DNA from: Armatimonadota bacterium
GTDB lineage: Bacteria; Armatimonadota; Fimbriimonadia; Fimbriimonadales; GBS-DC
Length of the DNA: 38,399 nt
Assembly (NCBI GenBank): GCA_023511915.1
Contig: JAIMAN010000021.1
Location: 1 to 38,399 of the forward strand
Direction of reading: 5' to 3'
The notes beneath the pieces are model-generated. The model saw nothing but the letters and a program-made list of their open reading frames with translations, was not told where the DNA came from and did not search any database. A program made the position numbers and the translations under genes. This document shows positions 16,590-28,608 of this stretch, one piece after another. Each line of letters starts with the position of its first letter. Position 1 is the first letter of the stretch.

Positions 16590-17342
16590 TCACAGCCGCT
16601 TCAGGTAGGGTTCCAGTTGCTGTTGCGTAAGCAGGCGGAAGCGGTTCTCGCGCAGCGTCTGGCGTTCCAAGATGCCGACCTCCACCTGCGCTTCGCCGAG
16701 CATTTCGCGCAGGCGGGCGCGCGCGGCGTCTTCGGAGACCGAGTCGGCGTCTTCCTGTTGCGCGGCTTCGTAGGCGACGCCCCAGGCAATCAGCGCAATC
16801 GGCAGCGCGCTCTCCAGCGTCGGCAGGCGCGTCAGTTGCGCCTCCAAGTAGCGCGTCGCCTGCTCTTCGGCGGTCTGCGTACCCCCAATCGCGGCGAACC
16901 GCTCGTAGGGCAGAAACTCGCCGTCGTAGTTGAGCGTGTAGAACTGGTCGCGCTCAGGGGCGTCGTGCAGCTCGGCGAACAGCGCACGCGCCACAAACGG
17001 CGTCGTGAGCGGGTCGCCGAACGCCTTTTTGAGCGCGGGCGAGAGCGCAAACCCCACCACCCGCTGAATCGTCACATCGTCAGGGCTGCGCACGAAGCCC
17101 TCTTGGTGCGCGAAGTCAATCGCCGCCAAGCGCAGGTTCTCCACATCCGCTTGGTTGCCAATCGCGGAGAACATCAGGCGGTCGTAGACCTCGTACACCT
17201 TGCGCCCGCGCCGCTTGAGCGCAAGCAGCAATATGCCGTTGTCGTAGCTAATCCCGATTACGGGACTGCCCGCACGCAAGCGGTTGCGGATATACTGCGC
17301 CCGCTGCTGCAGGTTCTCCTGAAAATCATACGGGGTAAGCAT
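16590..17342 (-). CDS. prcA: 20S proteasome alpha subunit
   Basis: A 250-residue proteasome alpha-type protein. It opens with MLTPYDFQENLQQRAQYIRN, followed by RAGSPVIGISYDNGILLLAL, VYEVYDRLMFSAIGNQADVE and YTLNYDGEFLPYE, aligning with actinobacterial PrcA throughout. It has no catalytic threonine after a glycine, as expected for the gate-forming outer rings of the 20S barrel. Its ATG overlaps the prcB TGA as TGATG, so the two subunits should be made in matched amounts. The C-terminal tail is short and lacks the Gly/Ser-rich extension of the mycobacterial protein. Confidence 0.95.
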   Translation of the reverse strand: MLTPYDFQENLQQRAQYIRNRLRAGSPVIGISYDNGILLLALKRRGRKVYEVYDRLMFSAIGNQADVENLRLAAIDFAHQEGFVRSPDDVTIQRVVGFALSPALKKAFGDPLTTPFVARALFAELHDAPERDQFYTLNYDGEFLPYERFAAIGGTQTAEEQATRYLEAQLTRLPTLESALPIALIAWGVAYEAAQQEDADSVSEDAARARLREMLGEAQVEVGILERQTLRENRFRLLTQQQLEPYLKRL

Positions 17343-18145
17343 CAGCCGTTGCCTCCGTTCCGAATCGACTGCACGATGTCGCGGATAGTCGCTTCGGGCA
17401 CTTCGAACACGCCCTCGCGGTTCACATAGCGCGCGGTGGGCAGCACCTTGTCGATGCCGCCTGTCGCCGCATCCAAGTCGGCAGCGATGTCCAGCAGCAG
17501 AATCGCCTCGCGCAGCACTTCCTCCAGCGGTCGCTGACTGAACGCCCCGCGCGTCTTGGTGATGTAGTCGAACACGCCGCGAATGCGCTCGGAGCCAGAG
17601 CCTGACGCGCCGTATTCAGGCGTTTCGAAGCGCGCGCCGCTCACATCATAAAAGAAGATGCGCCCGCAGTCGCGGTCGGGGTCGTATACGCTCAGGATGG
17701 GGATGAACAGCCCGATGCCGCCCAGTGCGTTGGGCAGATTCGCCGACAGCGCACGCGAGACCTCTTGGAGCTTGCCGTCCAAGCTCATGGGCTGGAGTTG
17801 GCTGCGGGCGTAGTATTTGAAGGCGTGGCGCAAGTAGCGCACGACTTCCATCGCGCGCCCGTACGCGCCCGCGATGGCGACCAGCGTGTGGTCGTCCAGC
17901 GGGATGATTTTGTCCGCGCGGTCGTACATCACGGCGTTGGCGGCAGTGGCGCGTCGGTCGCCGACATTCAGCACGCCGCCCTGAAACTTCAGCGCAATCA
18001 CCGTCGTGCCGTGCACCTCCAGCGCGGCGTTGGGCGCGGGCTGCGGCGCGTCGATGGGACTAAACAGCGGCAGACGCACACCCGTTTGCGCTTGGTAGCC
18101 CTGTAGCAGTTCATAAAAGTCGCCCGAATAGGTTCGTGTTGTCAT
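17342..18145 (-). CDS. prcB: 20S proteasome beta subunit with N-terminal propeptide
   Basis: A 267-residue precursor. Cleavage after G46 in LEVHGTTVIALKF exposes the catalytic Thr47 (Thr1 of the mature enzyme). In mature numbering, D17 (NVGDRR) and K33 (DRADKII) are both in place, so the active site is complete. The beta subunits form the proteolytic inner rings. The ATG at 18145 is chosen because it gives a normal 46-residue propeptide and has GAGG about 6 nt upstream. A TATACA 10 nt upstream may be an internal promoter for prcBA. The mature part shares GDRRATAANA-type sequence with actinobacterial PrcB. Confidence 0.96.
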   Translation of the reverse strand: MTTRTYSGDFYELLQGYQAQTGVRLPLFSPIDAPQPAPNAALEVHGTTVIALKFQGGVLNVGDRRATAANAVMYDRADKIIPLDDHTLVAIAGAYGRAMEVVRYLRHAFKYYARSQLQPMSLDGKLQEVSRALSANLPNALGGIGLFIPILSVYDPDRDCGRIFFYDVSGARFETPEYGASGSGSERIRGVFDYITKTRGAFSQRPLEEVLREAILLLDIAADLDAATGGIDKVLPTARYVNREGVFEVPEATIRDIVQSIRNGGNG

Positions 18146-18155
18146 AGCGCCTCGT

Positions 18156-18161
18156 TGTATA
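18156..18161 (-). promoter_or_regulatory. Possible internal -10 box for prcB-prcA
   Basis: TATACA on the minus strand, 10 nt before the prcB ATG, inside the 82-nt gap between ubact and prcB. It could allow the proteasome core to be expressed apart from dop-ubact. Confidence 0.3.
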
Positions 18162-18227
18162 GGTTTGGCGGACGCCCGCGCAGGCGGCAGGCGTCGCGCC
18201 CGTTGATCGGTTCGCTCAAGCGTTGGC

Positions 18228-18416
18228 TTACTGCCCGCTGCGCTGGCGGTAGCGACGCGCCTGCTCTGGGTCAATGCGGCGCATGCGCTTAAGCAGCTCG
18301 TTCGTATCAGGTCGCTTCACATCCGGCTTGCCTGGTCCGTCGCCGTCGCCGCCGGGTCGCGTCAGCGGCTCTGTCGGCACAGGGCGTCGGACGCGCTCTT
18401 CCGCTCGTGTGATCAT
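18228..18416 (-). CDS. ubact: UBact, Pup-like protein modifier
   Basis: A 62-residue, hydrophilic, probably disordered protein. Its C-terminal part, NELLKRMRRIDPEQARRYRQ then RSGQ, matches UBact, the Pup homologue described in Nitrospirae, Armatimonadetes and other Gram-negative phyla. The N-terminal half is rich in Gly, Pro, Asp and Arg (RPGGDGDGPGKPDVKRPD). By analogy with Pup, the terminal residue is joined to lysines of target proteins; here it is Gln, so Dop must first deamidate it to Glu. The ATG overlaps the dop TGA as ATGA. Identification rests on sequence pattern and operon context together. Confidence 0.93.
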   Translation of the reverse strand: MITRAEERVRRPVPTEPLTRPGGDGDGPGKPDVKRPDTNELLKRMRRIDPEQARRYRQRSGQ

Positions 18417-19942
18417 TGCGGTTCCTCCTGTTTGGGTGCGCTCGCCCTGTGGGGCGCACGCAATAGGTCTACGAATTGCGTAATCGTCTCTGCCGTCGTC
18501 AGACGACGGTTCAAATCGCTCGTGTCGCCGATGAGCTGGCTCAAGTCCAGCCGCACGGTCTGGTCATCGTTGCGCAGCACGATGCGCTCCCAGTTGATGC
18601 TTTCCACCTGCGATGCGTAGCGCTGCACGCACAGCGCACGGATGGCAGCGCGGGTGTCGCGTGGCGGGTTGTGCATCGCGAACGCCACCGCTTCGGGGCT
18701 GACCAGCGTCTGCATCCGCCCCTGCTCCACCAGCGCGTAATACAGCCCTTCGGCAGGGTCTACATCATGATACGCCAAATCGAGCGCAATCATCGCAGGG
18801 TCGTCCAGCGAAACGCCTTCCGCCTCCGCAAAAAGGCTCAACAACTGGCGTTTGGCGACCCAGTCGAGTCGGTCGCCCAGCGCGTCGGGGTCGGTCTCCA
18901 GCAGGTGCAGCACAGTCTCCCACTCGCGCAACACCCAGTCGGTCTCGGCGTCGCGCCCTGCAAACCGTTGCGCGGCGGCGTCCAAGTAGTAGCGTTGCAC
19001 CTCGATGGCGGTCATCACCCCGCGGTCGGTCTCCACCAGCCATTTGCCGTCGGGGTCGCGCGAGATTCGCTGCGCGGTCGCCACAGGGTCTACGACAATC
19101 AGGTTCGCTGCCCAGCCCGTCTCCAGCAGCTCCAGCACGAGCGCGGTCGCGCCGACCTTGAGCGCGGTCGCGTACTCGCTCATGTTCGCGTCCCCGCAAA
19201 TCACATGCAGGCGGCGGTAGTCGTGCATGCGGGCGTGCGGTTCGTCACGCGTGTTGAATATCGGGCGGCGGTACAGCGTCTCCACATTCATCGTGTCCAT
19301 GTAGAAGTCGGCGCGCTGGCTGATTTGGTACGGCACGCGCGGGTTCGGGTTGTTTTCCACGCCGACCTTGCCCGCCCCTGCGTAAATCAGGCGCGTAGTC
19401 AAAAACGGCGTCATCGTGGACGCCAGCGTCTCGAAGGGGATGTCGCGCCGCAGCAGGTAGCTCTCGTGCGTGCCGTAGCTGCTGCCGTGGTAGTCGGTGT
19501 TGTTCTTGTAGAGTTTGACCGTCGCGTTGATACGCTGCTGGTACGCCTGCGCACACGCCAGCAGGATACGCTCGCCCGCCTTGTCGTAGGCGATCAAGTC
19601 CATCAGGCGTCGGCATTCGGGCGTGGCGTATTCGGGGTGCGCGTGGTCGTTATACAGCCGTGCGCCGTTGGCAAGCCCATGGTCGCTGCGCACCTCGCGC
19701 TCGGAGAGGCTAATGGGGTGTTCGCGCTCGATTTGCGCGTCGTGTGGGTCTACGGCGAGATGCTCCACGCGGAAGCCGCGCATGTCGCGTCGGGGGTCTT
19801 CCAGTCGGTAGTCCCAGCAGCCTTTGACGGCGGGGAACGGGCAGCTGCGCAGCACGCCGACGGCTTCCATCACCTGGTCTGCGACGCCACGCCCCTCCAC
19901 ATACAGCCCATATTCAGTTTCGATGCCCAGCAGGCGGTTCAC
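18413..19942 (-). CDS. dop: Pup/UBact deamidase-depupylase Dop
   Basis: A 509-residue glutamine-synthetase-fold enzyme. Marks are LLGIETEYGLYVEG (metal/ATP glutamates E8 and E10), NGARLYNDHAHPEYATPE with the catalytic-position D99, LYKNNTDYHGSSYGTHESYL and NTRDEPHARMHDYRRLHVI. Two points favour Dop over the ligase PafA: the insert WDYRLEDPRRDMRGFRVE (about 43-60), which corresponds to the Dop loop, and DHAHPEY where PafA has DVGSHPEY. Dop converts the C-terminal Gln of the modifier to Glu and also removes it from substrates. It starts with GTG at 19942, 7 nt after a TATAAT. Confidence 0.94.
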   Translation of the reverse strand: MNRLLGIETEYGLYVEGRGVADQVMEAVGVLRSCPFPAVKGCWDYRLEDPRRDMRGFRVEHLAVDPHDAQIEREHPISLSEREVRSDHGLANGARLYNDHAHPEYATPECRRLMDLIAYDKAGERILLACAQAYQQRINATVKLYKNNTDYHGSSYGTHESYLLRRDIPFETLASTMTPFLTTRLIYAGAGKVGVENNPNPRVPYQISQRADFYMDTMNVETLYRRPIFNTRDEPHARMHDYRRLHVICGDANMSEYATALKVGATALVLELLETGWAANLIVVDPVATAQRISRDPDGKWLVETDRGVMTAIEVQRYYLDAAAQRFAGRDAETDWVLREWETVLHLLETDPDALGDRLDWVAKRQLLSLFAEAEGVSLDDPAMIALDLAYHDVDPAEGLYYALVEQGRMQTLVSPEAVAFAMHNPPRDTRAAIRALCVQRYASQVESINWERIVLRNDDQTVRLDLSQLIGDTSDLNRRLTTAETITQFVDLLRAPHRASAPKQEEPQ

Positions 19943-23833: not shown

Positions 23834-24385
23834 CTACTTGCGTCGGCGGCGCAAGCCGAGTAAGCCTGCAAGTCCAATCGAGAGGGCTGCCATACTGGCA
23901 GGCTCGGGAACCTCTACAACGAATCCCCTAATGTGGCTCAGATCGCCCTCATCATTCCAGCTCGTAGGGGAGTAGAGACCGATGGCGAGATGCTGCTCGC
24001 TGCCAGGTCCGAAGGCATCGTTCGGTTCCCCAGGACCCCAGTTGGTGTAGCCCCAAGCCTCGCCTGTGACCCACTGCCAGTTGGCTAACGGATTCGTCTC
24101 GCCCTGCGGTTGGAAACCGCCCAACCATCGCTGATCTGAGATCACACTGCTGTTGAGGCTTGCCACGAAGGCGTTTTCCCCAGCGTCCGTGATGGTCGCC
24201 AGATAACCCCCCAGGCTTGTGGCGAACGCCTGCGCGCTTGCCCAATCGATTCCAGCAGCATCGTAGATGTAGTACTGATGCCCATTGCCAGAGTAAGTGC
24301 CCGATGTGACGAGGGTCTGCGCATGAAGACCACTCGTCAACGCGAACGCACAAACTGCAACGAACCCCATCACTCGTTTCATCAT
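23834..24385 (-). CDS. Secreted C-type lectin-like protein with PEP-CTERM anchor
   Basis: A 183-residue protein. It has a signal peptide (MMKRVMGFVAVCAFALTSGL, cut near LHAQ) and a C-type lectin-like domain with SAQAFATSLGGYLATITD, then WLGGFQPQGE and WGPGEPNDAFG, the calcium/sugar-binding EPN signature. The tail VPEPASMAALSIGLAGLLGL ending in RRRRK is a PEP-CTERM signal: a PEP motif, a hydrophobic helix and a basic end. Such proteins are processed by an exosortase; none is encoded here. The start is fixed by AAGGAGG (24390-24396) 4 nt before the first ATG, one of the strongest ribosome-binding sites in the window. Confidence 0.9.
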   Translation of the reverse strand: MMKRVMGFVAVCAFALTSGLHAQTLVTSGTYSGNGHQYYIYDAAGIDWASAQAFATSLGGYLATITDAGENAFVASLNSSVISDQRWLGGFQPQGETNPLANWQWVTGEAWGYTNWGPGEPNDAFGPGSEQHLAIGLYSPTSWNDEGDLSHIRGFVVEVPEPASMAALSIGLAGLLGLRRRRK

Positions 24386-24588
24386 ATGTCCTCCTTCTGA
24401 TATTGGGTGTTGCTGTCTTCGGCTGCTCCGAAGCGACACCCGCGGCGGAGTCACGCGCGCCGCGCTGTCGGATGTGTCCGTGCTCTTGCGCAGTGGACAC
24501 CTCCACGGAAACAATGAGCAACTCCCGTGCCAGACCTCGTGGAGTGGGCAGGCACATCTACGAGTTTTGGGGCGTCGCCCGCACAAGG

Positions 24589-24594
24589 TACAAT
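24589..24594 (+). promoter_or_regulatory. -10 box, leaderless-type, of lptB
   Basis: TACAAT 7 nt before the ATG at 24602, with no Shine-Dalgarno. TTTTGG at 24565-24570 is a weak -35 candidate. The rest of the 216-nt gap from 24386 shows no other feature. Confidence 0.55.
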
Positions 24595-24601
24595 TCGCGA
24601 G

Positions 24602-25321
24602 ATGACCATTCGCGCCGAGAATCTCAAACGCGCCTACCGCAAGCGGCTGGTGGTGCGTGATGTGTCGCTGGAGGTCGGGCAGGGCGAGGTGGTCGGACTG
24701 CTGGGACCCAACGGCGCGGGCAAGACGACCACCTTCTACATGATCGTCGGTCTCATCCGCCCGCATGGGGGGCGCGTGTTCGTGGGCGAGCGGGAGATTA
24801 CGCGCCTGCCGATGTACCAGCGCGCGCGGCTGGGGCTGGGCTACCTGCCCCAAGAGGCGTCCGTGTTTCGGCAACTCACGGTCGAGCAGAACCTGCTGCT
24901 GGTGATGGAGATGCGCGGCATTCCGCCCAAAGAGCGTCGCGAACGCGCCGAACAACTGATGGAGGAGTTCCACATCGCGCACCTGCGCCACAGCAAGGGC
25001 TACGCGCTGTCGGGCGGCGAGCGACGACGCGTCGAAATCGCCCGCGCACTCGCCCTCCAGCCCGCCTTCCTGCTGCTCGACGAACCGTTCACGGGGATTG
25101 ACCCCAAGACCATCGAGGAACTCCAAGAGATTATTCTGGGGCTGCGCGCGCGCACTATCGGCGTGCTGATTACCGACCACAATGTGAGCGCGACGCTGCG
25201 CATTACCGACCGCAGCTACATCCTTGCCGACGGCGTGATTGTCGCACAGGGCGCGCCCGAAGAGGTGATTACCGACCCGCTCGCACGGAAATACTACTTC
25301 GGCGAGAGTTTCGAGCTATAA
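24602..25321 (+). CDS. lptB: Lipopolysaccharide export ATPase LptB
   Basis: A 239-residue ABC ATPase with Walker [18 protein letters not shown] (about 36-52), Q-loop [19 protein letters not shown], signature [17 protein letters not shown], Walker [14 protein letters not shown] and switch histidine in LITDHNV. The signature and the [12 protein letters not shown]-terminus are those of LptB, which drives lipopolysaccharide transport from the inner to the outer membrane with LptFGC. The Lpt partners are not adjacent. Its stop codon lies inside the TATAAT of the following regulator gene. Confidence 0.93.
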
Positions 25322-25341: not shown

Positions 25342-28300
25342 ATGATGCACGCGGAGCCGCGCTGGTATTTTCGGCTGTTTGGGGGCTTCGAGGCGCGCTG
25401 GGGCGCGGTTTGCGTGCATCGCCTACGCACGGCGAAGACCACCGCGCTGATGGGCTACATGGTCGCGCACCCGCCGCACCGCTTCCCGCGCGAGGCGTTG
25501 TGCGCGCGGTTCTGGGACGACAGGGAGCCCGAGCGCGCCCGCAACAGCCTCAGCGTCGCCCTGAACGCGATTCGACACGCCTTTCACCCCGACGAGGCGT
25601 CCGCGCCGTTACTGGAGTGCGACGCGCACACCGTCGCGCTGAACCCCGACCTGTTCGCCGCCGATGTGTTGGCGTTCGAGGAAACCCTTGCGTTGGCGCA
25701 GCGCACAAGCGACCCCAGTGCGCAGCGCCAACACTACGCGCACGCCGCGAGCCTCTACCACGGCGAGTTTATGGCTGGCTACTACGAGCCGTGGATTATC
25801 GACAAATCGGCGCAACTCCAGCTGCGGTATGTCCACACGCTGCGCCAACTCGTGGAGTTAGAGATGCAGCGCGGGGAGCGCGTGTCCGCCATCGAGTGGC
25901 TCCAGCGGTTAGTGAGCGCGCAGCCGTATGACCCTGACCCGCTGTACGCGCTGACGATGCTCTATTTGGAGGAGGGATTGGACGCGGCGGCGCGGCAGCT
26001 CTGCGAGGCGTGGCAGGAGCAGTATGTGCGCGAGCAGGGGCGCGCGGTTCCCGACAAGGCGCGCGCTGCACTTTTGCACTGCCAGCAGTATCATGGCGTG
26101 CGTCGGCGACGCGGACGGCAGGCAAGCCCCGCGCGCCCCGATAAGCCCGAACGGAACGCGCCGCCCGCGCTGTCCGTTGCCGTCGAGCCTGCCGAGAGCG
26201 CACTGCCGACCCCTGCGACGCCCCTTTTGGGGCGGGAACAGGAGCTGGAGTCGCTGCTGCGCGCGCTGCGTCAGCACGACACGCGCTGCCTCACGCTGCT
26301 GGGGCTGGGCGGGGTGGGCAAGACGCGCCTCGCGCTGGAGGTCGCCCGACGCTGGACGCCGCACGACGCCGTGTGCTGGACGCCGCTGGCGAGCCTCACG
26401 CACGCGGAGCAACTCCCCGAAGCGGTGCTGCTGGCGATGGGCGTCGCGCCCGAAGGCGAACCGCTCGCGCAGCTGCGACACTGCCTGCGCCAGCGCGGGA
26501 CGCTGCTGCTCGTGCTGGACAACCTGGAGCATCTGCTGCCCGACGCCGCGCGGCTCGTCGCGCGCCTGCTGCAGGACGCGCCCGAATGCCGTCTGCTGAG
26601 TACCTCCCGCGCGCCAATCGGCATCGACGGCGAGACGCTGGTCGCGCTCGCGCCGCTGCCCTGCGACGACACGCTCGCCAGCCCCGCTGTGCAGCTGTTC
26701 GTGCATCGGGCGCGGCAGGTCGCGCACGATTTCCGCACGACAGACGAGAACCTGCCGATCATCGGCGCGCTGTGCCGACGGCTGGACGGCGTGCCGCTGG
26801 CAATCGAGCTGGCAGCCTCGCGTGTGAATGTGCTTAGCCCGCGCCAGATGCTCGACTCGGTCGCGCATCGGCTGGAGTGGCTCAAGACGCACCGTGTGGA
26901 CATCCCGCCGCGCCATCGCGAGATGCGCAGCGTGCTGGATGTCGCCTACGCGACGCTGCCTGCCGCCGCGCAGACGCTGCTGCGCCAACTCGCCGCGTCG
27001 CCAGGCGCGTGGACATTGGCGACGCTGCACGCGGTGTTTTACCCCGACGCGCCGTTGGAACCCGTCGCCGACGCGCTGGAGACGCTGCTCGGCGCAGGGC
27101 TGGCGATGCGCCTGCCCAACGGCGACGCGCCCAAGTTCCACCTGCTGGAAGTCGTGCGCGAGTACGCCCAGATGCTTCAGACGCCCGACGAGACGCACGC
27201 CTACAGGCGCGCCATCAGCGATTGGGTGCGGGCGCAGGCGGCGACGCGCGCTGCCCAAAGCCACACGGCGCAACTCCCCGATTGGCTCGCTTTCTGGGAC
27301 GACCACAAGGAGCTGCTGCGCGAGACGCTGGAGTTCCTGCACGAGCAGGGGCAGACGGGCGCACTGCTGACGCTGTTTGAGCATGGGGCGCGCTACCTGC
27401 TGTTGCGTCCCGCGGCGTCGTGGGCGCGTGAGTCGCTCGCGCGCGTGCAAGCCGCCGACGCCCCGCCCGACGCGCTCTGCCGCGCGATGTGCCTGCTCGC
27501 ACGCCTGCACTTCCATCTGGAGTCGTTCGAGGCGAGCCGCGCATGGGCGCGCCGCGCGCTCGCACTCGCCGAATCGCCCGACGCGCCCGTCGACGACGCC
27601 ACGCGCGGCTGGGCGCTCTACTGGACGGTGCAGACCGCCTTCACCGCGCGCGCGATGGACACGGTGAATGCCCACTGGGAGCGGCTGTGGGCGTACTACC
27701 CGTGCCCACACGAGCCGCGTTTGCATCTGGCGATTCACTACCTGGCGGGCTACCTTTTTCCTGAACGCCACACCGCCGAATGGCGCGAACAGGCGGTGCA
27801 GTTCGCGCACGCGCAGGGCGACCCGCTGCTGCTGCTGGACGCGATTGACGCGCTGCTGGAGCCGCTCTACTTTCGCGGCGAGTACGAGCGGGCGCGGGCG
27901 TACCTGCGCGAAGCCGAAACGCTCGCGCGACTGTTAGGCTCGCAGACGCGCCTGCTGGCGATGCTCTACACCCGCACATACATCGACATCCAGCAGGGCG
28001 CACTCGACTCGGCGGAATCGCTGATTGCCGAACTCTACGCGCTCGACGCGCAACTTGGACGCCACTCGGAGAGCATCCAGTGGCTGCACGGGATGCTGTA
28101 TCGCCATCAGGGGCGATACGCCGACGCGCTGCGCCTCGCGCTGGAGCTGACCGCCCAGCAGGAGATGGCGCAGCGCCCGCACGAGGCTGCCAGCGCGTGG
28201 GACTTGGCGGCGACCGTCGCGCTGGAGATGGGCGACCTGACCGCCGCGCGCCGCTACGCCCAACACGCGCTCGACCAACGCGCCCGACAAGACGACGCCT

Positions 28301-28608
28301 ACCGCCTGCACTTTAGCAAGACCCACTATTACGGCATCCGCGGTATGACCGCGCCCGACGCCGAAGCCATCAACGGCTTGCACGCCTGCCTGCGCTTCTG
28401 GGAATCGCAAGACCTCCCGCCTTGGCGTGCGAACACGCTCTACTACCTCGCCGCCGCATTCGCTATTGCAGGCGAGACCGCCCGCGCCCACGACGCCCTC
28501 GACGCCGCCATCCACCTCAACGAAGCGATGGGACGCCGTATCGCCCTCGAACGCTGCTACGCCCTGAAAGCGCAACTGCCAATTTCCCCCCCAAAAACCC
28601 CAAATTAA
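25342..28608 (+). CDS. SARP/AfsR-like regulator with BTAD, STAND ATPase and TPR domains
   Basis: A 1088-residue cytoplasmic regulator. Residues about 8-100 form an OmpR-like winged helix of SARP type (RLRTAKTTALMGYMVAHPP, PERARNSLSVALNAIRHAF). Residues about 105-250 form the BTAD domain. After a Pro/Arg-rich linker, an NB-ARC/STAND ATPase follows: Walker A LLGLGGVGKTRLALEV (about 318-333), Walker B TLLLVLDNLEHLL (about 386-398) and GVPLAIELAASR (about 480-491). The C-terminal 450 or so residues are Ala/Leu-rich helical repeats of TPR type. In AfsR-like proteins the winged helix binds direct heptad repeats and the STAND module acts as a switch. ATG at 25345 is an equally possible start. The likely target is the promoter at 28605-28669. 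Confidence 0.92.
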   Translation: MMHAEPRWYFRLFGGFEARWGAVCVHRLRTAKTTALMGYMVAHPPHRFPREALCARFWDDREPERARNSLSVALNAIRHAFHPDEASAPLLECDAHTVALNPDLFAADVLAFEETLALAQRTSDPSAQRQHYAHAASLYHGEFMAGYYEPWIIDKSAQLQLRYVHTLRQLVELEMQRGERVSAIEWLQRLVSAQPYDPDPLYALTMLYLEEGLDAAARQLCEAWQEQYVREQGRAVPDKARAALLHCQQYHGVRRRRGRQASPARPDKPERNAPPALSVAVEPAESALPTPATPLLGREQELESLLRALRQHDTRCLTLLGLGGVGKTRLALEVARRWTPHDAVCWTPLASLTHAEQLPEAVLLAMGVAPEGEPLAQLRHCLRQRGTLLLVLDNLEHLLPDAARLVARLLQDAPECRLLSTSRAPIGIDGETLVALAPLPCDDTLASPAVQLFVHRARQVAHDFRTTDENLPIIGALCRRLDGVPLAIELAASRVNVLSPRQMLDSVAHRLEWLKTHRVDIPPRHREMRSVLDVAYATLPAAAQTLLRQLAASPGAWTLATLHAVFYPDAPLEPVADALETLLGAGLAMRLPNGDAPKFHLLEVVREYAQMLQTPDETHAYRRAISDWVRAQAATRAAQSHTAQLPDWLAFWDDHKELLRETLEFLHEQGQTGALLTLFEHGARYLLLRPAASWARESLARVQAADAPPDALCRAMCLLARLHFHLESFEASRAWARRALALAESPDAPVDDATRGWALYWTVQTAFTARAMDTVNAHWERLWAYYPCPHEPRLHLAIHYLAGYLFPERHTAEWREQAVQFAHAQGDPLLLLDAIDALLEPLYFRGEYERARAYLREAETLARLLGSQTRLLAMLYTRTYIDIQQGALDSAESLIAELYALDAQLGRHSESIQWLHGMLYRHQGRYADALRLALELTAQQEMAQRPHEAASAWDLAATVALEMGDLTAARRYAQHALDQRARQDDAYRLHFSKTHYYGIRGMTAPDAEAINGLHACLRFWESQDLPPWRANTLYYLAAAFAIAGETARAHDALDAAIHLNEAMGRRIALERCYALKAQLPISPPKTPN

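Follow-up and report, generated by a model that had tools for sequence, protein, structure and literature searches.

The window, as we call the whole stretch of 38,399 nucleotides analysed here (contig JAIMAN010000021.1, positions 1 to 38,399, of assembly GCA_023511915.1, an Armatimonadota bacterium of the order Fimbriimonadales), carries on its minus strand the operon dop-ubact-prcB-prcA, the core of a UBact-proteasome system with its tag, a Dop enzyme and both subunits of a 20S particle. An earlier note, made from the letters alone, had read this gene order and complete active sites in PrcB (Thr1, Asp17, Lys33) and Dop (Glu8, Glu10, Asp99); both readings are borne out by the window sequence and by profile searches, with family scores far above chance. 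The genes are, in operon order:

18413..19942, minus strand: dop, UBact depupylase/deamidase-type enzyme of 509 amino acids, GTG start, with the insert typical of Dop located between the strand of E8/E10 and the loop of D99; PF03136 (Pup_ligase) 518 bits, TIGR03688 (Dop) 465 versus TIGR03686 (PafA) 354 bits
18228..18416, minus strand: ubact, UBact tag of 62 amino acids with the C-terminus RQRSGQ; PF20513 82 bits, NF033388 86 bits
17342..18145, minus strand: prcB, catalytic 20S beta subunit; TIGR03690 140 bits, PF00227 82 bits
16590..17342, minus strand: prcA, 20S alpha subunit, 250 amino acids; Proteasome family 36 bits, TIGR03691 91 bits, below its cut-off

The best solved match of the window Dop is the Dop structure 4b0r (E 7e-105), aligned over the whole length, and the three acidic residues align to those of the solved Dop. 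The tag, present in a single copy in the genome, exceeds both curated cut-offs (27.8 bits for PF20513 and 35 bits for NF033388). PrcB, for which the ATG at 18145 is the probable start, reads as a propeptide followed by Thr1 in HGTTVIAL. PrcA is divergent in sequence, and its AlphaFold model, at a predicted local distance difference test (pLDDT) score of 94.8, displays the N-terminal helix that alpha subunits have; its best Foldseek matches are the alpha-type chains of Mycobacterium tuberculosis and Rhodococcus. The start of ubact overlaps the stop of dop in ATGA and the start of prcA that of prcB in TGATG, as had been described; the packing is nevertheless not tight throughout, as had also been claimed, because about 82 base pairs separate ubact from prcB if the latter begins at ATG 18145.

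Ligase and ATPase at two other loci

The flanks of the operon, a ZIP gene upstream and cca downstream, contain neither PafA nor Mpa/ARC, exactly as the earlier note had stated. Its description of the operon as lacking ligase and ATPase genes is thus correct for the neighbourhood but not for the assembly, where both genes are encoded elsewhere, one of the two possibilities that had been offered. The host genome is a 98% complete draft of 2.73 Mb in 122 contigs, to which also the contigs C7, C13 and C66 belong, and holds exactly two Pup_ligase proteins, the window Dop and the product of the following gene:

C13:12655-14031: pafA, PafA-type ligase with the Pup_ligase fold, 425 bits

The C13 protein is devoid of the long Dop insert and, in a tree built from 43 Pup_ligase proteins, falls with a support of 100/100 into the clade formed by the proteins in PafA position of UBact systems, that is the products of the genes located after prcA in complete clusters, and the window protein groups with the Dops of UBact clusters. 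Neither of the two proteins reaches an NCBIfam equivalog cut-off. With a separate PafA-type ligase at hand, the alternative proposal of a Dop with several roles is unneeded. In the same tree, Dop and PafA group by system (UBact versus Pup, 99/99) and not by function, and a constraint that keeps all Dops together is weakly rejected (approximately unbiased test, p 0.04). Judged from this topology, the ligases of the UBact and the Pup systems possibly have separate origins, or the grouping is a tree artefact.

The genome encodes one proteasomal ATPase, on C66, in an intact reading frame, as is the case for pafA on C13. It is of the ARC type, with OB_N, OB_C and AAA domains and an N-terminal helical segment, has Mpa as its closest solved relatives and scores 440 bits with TIGR03689 (cut-off 505). 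Genes of the proteasome fold amount to one prcB, one prcA and one HslV-type gene on C7. A decayed copy of the operon next to a second complete one, the finding named beforehand as refuting, is excluded within the draft, as ubact, prcB and prcA each occur in a single set. The genome therefore encodes a complete UBact-proteasome system distributed over three loci with nothing missing; the presence and identity of the parts are directly observed, as are the gene orders.

The absence of PafA and ARC from the window would equally fit an operon that is a remnant, reduced to the core protease or provided with a Dop that doubles as ligase. We regard this as highly improbable, as PafA and ARC are present in the same genome in intact frames and all active sites are intact. 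Furthermore, a congener with a single-contig genome (G155) shows the arrangement of the window, including dop; its pafA is 1.21 Mb distant and accompanied by the two genes that neighbour pafA on C13. The genome search refutes the remnant unless C13 and C66 represent contamination, which for C13 is countered by the conserved pafA context in the congener.

The ARC tail and the PrcA pocket

Docking of proteasomal ATPases, bacterial and eukaryotic alike, is held to depend mainly on the penultimate tyrosine of the C-terminal hydrophobic-Tyr-X (HbYX) motif (PMC8755798), and the earlier note had expected an ATPase with this residue. Instead, the ARC on C66 ends in DLRRTVI, and the penultimate tyrosine is absent from all 30 ARCs of the phylum that were examined first. 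Among the named relatives that were recovered by scanning 84,980 species genomes, UBact-cluster ARCs end in [VI][VI] and Pup-cluster ARCs in GQYL, GHYL or GTFL. A penultimate tyrosine or phenylalanine is found in 0/43 UBact-linked versus 52/53 Pup-linked ARCs, counts which include near-identical sequences and of which 34 and 26, respectively, are left after filtering at 90%. The sole Pup-linked exception, from Streptomyces ipomoeae (L164), ends in TSVP and stops inside the beta-grasp region, which is probably due to a frameshift, although GQYL was looked for in another frame of this locus and not found. A second difference resides in the pore loop (ARC at L008:7310-8992), which reads Trp-Leu/Val-Gly in UBact-linked and Tyr/Phe-Val-Gly in Pup-linked ARCs, with the tryptophan in 40/40 matched UBact-linked ARCs and tyrosine or phenylalanine in 52/53 Pup-linked ones.

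Whole-genome searches show that genomes carrying both tags exist. Both clusters were read in six such genomes, four from Poribacteria and two from Nitrospirota, where the tail type differs by cluster, the ARC of the Pup cluster ending in GHYL, GTFL or GTYL and that of the UBact cluster in RVI, PVI or RAIE. These genomes (G211, G212, G215, G216, G220 and G233; loci L266-L269 and L272-L279) thus hold two complete parallel systems, each with its own Dop, PafA, PrcB, PrcA and ARC; the Pup contig of G211 ends after prcB. Orphan Pup genes, one or two per genome, also occur in Nitrospira that have a complete UBact cluster and in NPIRA06 (L259, L260, L262, L264, L271); they end in NYVQKGGE and have no ligase, core or ATPase gene nearby.

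On the side of the core particle, Tyr608 of M. tuberculosis Mpa touches Arg26 or Glu119 of PrcA, the terminal carboxylate can bind Lys52, and Asp144 and Ser146 of the neighbour also touch the motif (PMC9599533). The corresponding pocket residues of the window protein are (M. tuberculosis residue in brackets):

Window PrcA: A24 (R26), K48 (K52), V117 (E119), D140 (D144), E142 (S146)

In an alignment of 50 Pup-type and 57 UBact-type PrcA sequences, position 119 is glutamate in 50/50 Pup-type and valine, isoleucine, leucine or alanine in 57/57 UBact-type sequences, an assignment which is secure because the residue comes one residue after an invariant proline. Position 26, the alignment of which is less secure than that of position 119, is arginine in 46/50 Pup-type (glutamine in the other four) versus 2/57 UBact-type proteins. 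Lys52 and Asp144 are invariant in both types. As Lys52 is invariant and position 119 aliphatic, the carboxylate site is kept and the partner of the tyrosine hydroxyl is aliphatic where the tail turns aliphatic; this covariation of tail and pocket is itself an observation.

Cumulatively, we consider it likely that the window encodes the core of a complete UBact-proteasome, with pafA and arc at two other loci, in which a tyrosine-less aliphatic tail docks ARC in a remodelled pocket. In such a system, Dop would deamidate the C-terminal glutamine of UBact (RQRSGQ) to glutamate, the PafA on C13 would attach UBact to lysines of target proteins, and Dop could detach it again. Hexameric ARC would bind the tag via its N-terminal coiled coil and pull substrates with its Trp-Leu-Gly pore loop, feeding the PrcA/PrcB 20S core. 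Docking on the alpha ring would be mediated by the RRTVI tail instead of an HbYX motif such as GQYL; the tail is predicted to enter a pocket that has kept the carboxylate-binding lysine, is aliphatic at the position of Glu119 and lacks Arg26. By homology with Mpa, binding of the tail in this pocket would open the gate, a geometry and a step that we infer, as we do the enzymatic reactions.

The same loss of the canonical HbYX motif from all UBact-linked ARCs, together with the requirement of the Mpa GQYL for 20S opening in mycobacteria (PMC12288473), could alternatively mean that ARC no longer docks and has become a stand-alone unfoldase, the 20S particle being gated by another activator. This appears unlikely, however, as the tail is retained in a tight [VI][VI] pattern across several phyla, the alpha pocket, in which K52 and D144 are preserved, is altered just at the tyrosine site, and arc adjoins dop-ubact-prcBA-pafA in most clusters.

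Several observations weigh against tail docking in a remodelled pocket as part of a complete system. A single branch of the ARC tree (100/100) separates UBact-type from Pup-type ARCs, and because the tree thus needs one change only, the altered tail, pocket and tag possibly reflect one old event. The contact between Mpa and the 20S particle in M. tuberculosis uses a beta-grasp hairpin as well (PMC9599533), by analogy with which the tail could matter less in UBact systems. The AlphaFold model of the ARC is weak (pLDDT 72, with the tail below 50). The C13 protein is by profile just slightly nearer to PafA (299 bits) than to Dop (290 bits), and because these scores are nearly equal its role as ligase is derived mostly from orthology of position and from its clade. 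Finally, the genome is a draft in many contigs.

That tail and pocket co-evolved repeatedly and independently has been set aside, since the ARC tree requires one change, and the association is to be read as conserved only. Tail, pocket and tag may rather have changed together once and been retained since, as far as the sequences tell. The single branch and the need for the beta-grasp contact in degradation in M. tuberculosis (PMC9599533) would also suit a difference that drifted neutrally and became fixed a single time at the base of the UBact branch, with the beta-grasp hairpin as docking element and the tail of minor importance. We hold this to be quite improbable, as drift should preserve neither the [VI]-[VI] tail of UBact-linked ARCs nor the aliphatic residue at position 119 in 57/57 proteins. 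Returning to docking by the aliphatic tail, we slightly favour the view that UBact-type proteasomes constitute a distinct old branch in which the gate is opened without the HbYX tyrosine, the [VI]-[VI] tail fitting a pocket with Glu119 replaced by valine, isoleucine or leucine, whereby the ATPases of dual-system cells may stay with their own cores.

Gene neighbourhood and breakup of the cluster

The operon is flanked by two genes outside the system, which flank it likewise in the single-contig congener:

20006..20782, plus strand: ZIP metal transporter gene, divergent left neighbour; PF02535 69 bits
14934..16328, minus strand: cca tRNA nucleotidyltransferase gene, right neighbour; PF01743, PF12627, HD and PF13735

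Judged by translation only, two further open reading frames of the window read as a secreted, C-type-lectin-like protein in its C-terminal part, with a PEP-CTERM-like sorting tail (VPEPASMAALSIGLAGLLGLRRRRK; 23834-25180, minus strand), and as a SARP/BTAD-type regulator-like protein of 1088 amino acids with a P-loop nucleoside triphosphatase domain and repeats (25342-28608, plus strand).

A 20S proteasome, termed uncommon in the earlier note, is so for Gram-negative bacteria at large but not for this phylum, where UBact is found in 77 of 151 sampled genomes. Among the 57 UBact genomes outside the order of the window, 33 possess arc-dop-ubact-(prcBA)-pafA as one cluster. Within the order, arc and pafA are located apart from dop-ubact in all 20 sampled genomes, four of which are single-contig genomes with distances of 78 kb to 2.2 Mb. 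That the whole order has pafA unlinked from the core is nevertheless ruled out, as three genera of the family of the window (G151, G159, G165) and the sister family f39 (G152) retain dop-ubact-prcB-prcA-pafA without arc and thus keep pafA beside prcA. In Fimbriimonadaceae, no prcA follows prcB in 13/13 clusters; loss of the gene is ruled out, as a sensitive PrcA model detects prcA elsewhere in every near-complete genome that bears prcB. The context of arc (tkt and an ogt-like gene) is not conserved in this family. Two of its members with small genomes of 1.5 Mb (G185, G186) have no proteasome-family gene that could be found, an apparent loss of the system.

The partial clusters in the sister genera, in f39 and in Fimbriimonadaceae point to a stepwise dismantling that went on in different lineages and preserved the parts. 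Read from the gene orders, an ancestral cluster arc-dop-ubact-prcB-prcA-pafA appears to have broken up by lineage, its parts being retained rather than lost; the order of the window would have lost the linkage to arc, and pafA would have departed within its family. As the gene order in Pup organisms has been described as rigidly conserved (PMC3511204), this series displays an operon long called rigid in the course of dismantling step by step. An unusual order, dop-prcB-prcA-ubact-prcB-pafA, is seen in Nitrospinaceae (L114, L287), where a single cluster contains two prcB genes that differ from each other.

Relation to known systems

UBact has already been reported from Gram-negative bacteria (Lehmann 2017, as cited in PMC12751074). 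The system described here shares with the known one the UBact tag, the Dop/PafA-type enzymes, the PrcA/PrcB 20S particle and ARC, and differs in that its genes are split over three loci. A link of UBact to the absence of HbYX, to a tyrosine-less tail or to a changed alpha pocket was not found in the literature searched, outside which the original Lehmann 2017 paper lies.

Docking by an aliphatic, tyrosine-less tail is known from HslU, which in E. coli ends in FIL. The likeness is restricted to the tails; HslV lacks alpha subunits, and HslU is no ARC.

With the Pup-proteasome of Actinobacteria, the system has in common the enzyme families and the order dop-tag-prcB-prcA(-pafA), and the closest solved relatives of the window Dop and PrcA and of the C66 ARC are members of Pup systems. 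On the other hand, the Pup tag ends in GGQ or GGE while the tag found here ends in RSGQ and matches UBact, not Pup; the Pup-linked ARC ends in GQYL instead of RRTVI and carries tyrosine or phenylalanine in the pore loop where UBact-linked ARCs have tryptophan; and PrcA of the Pup-proteasome possesses E119 and R26 where V117 and A24 are found here, with K48 and D140 kept. The UBact branch spans Armatimonadota, Verrucomicrobiota, Gemmatimonadota, Nitrospirota, Nitrospinota and Poribacteria. If the proposed docking is true, a branch that replaced the tyrosine along with a matching pocket would provide a natural experiment on the opening of the 20S gate, and the dual-system cells of Poribacteria and some Nitrospirota would hold natural orthogonal pairs of ATPase and core. 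The operon itself belongs to the known UBact kind, and docking without the tyrosine would be what is new.

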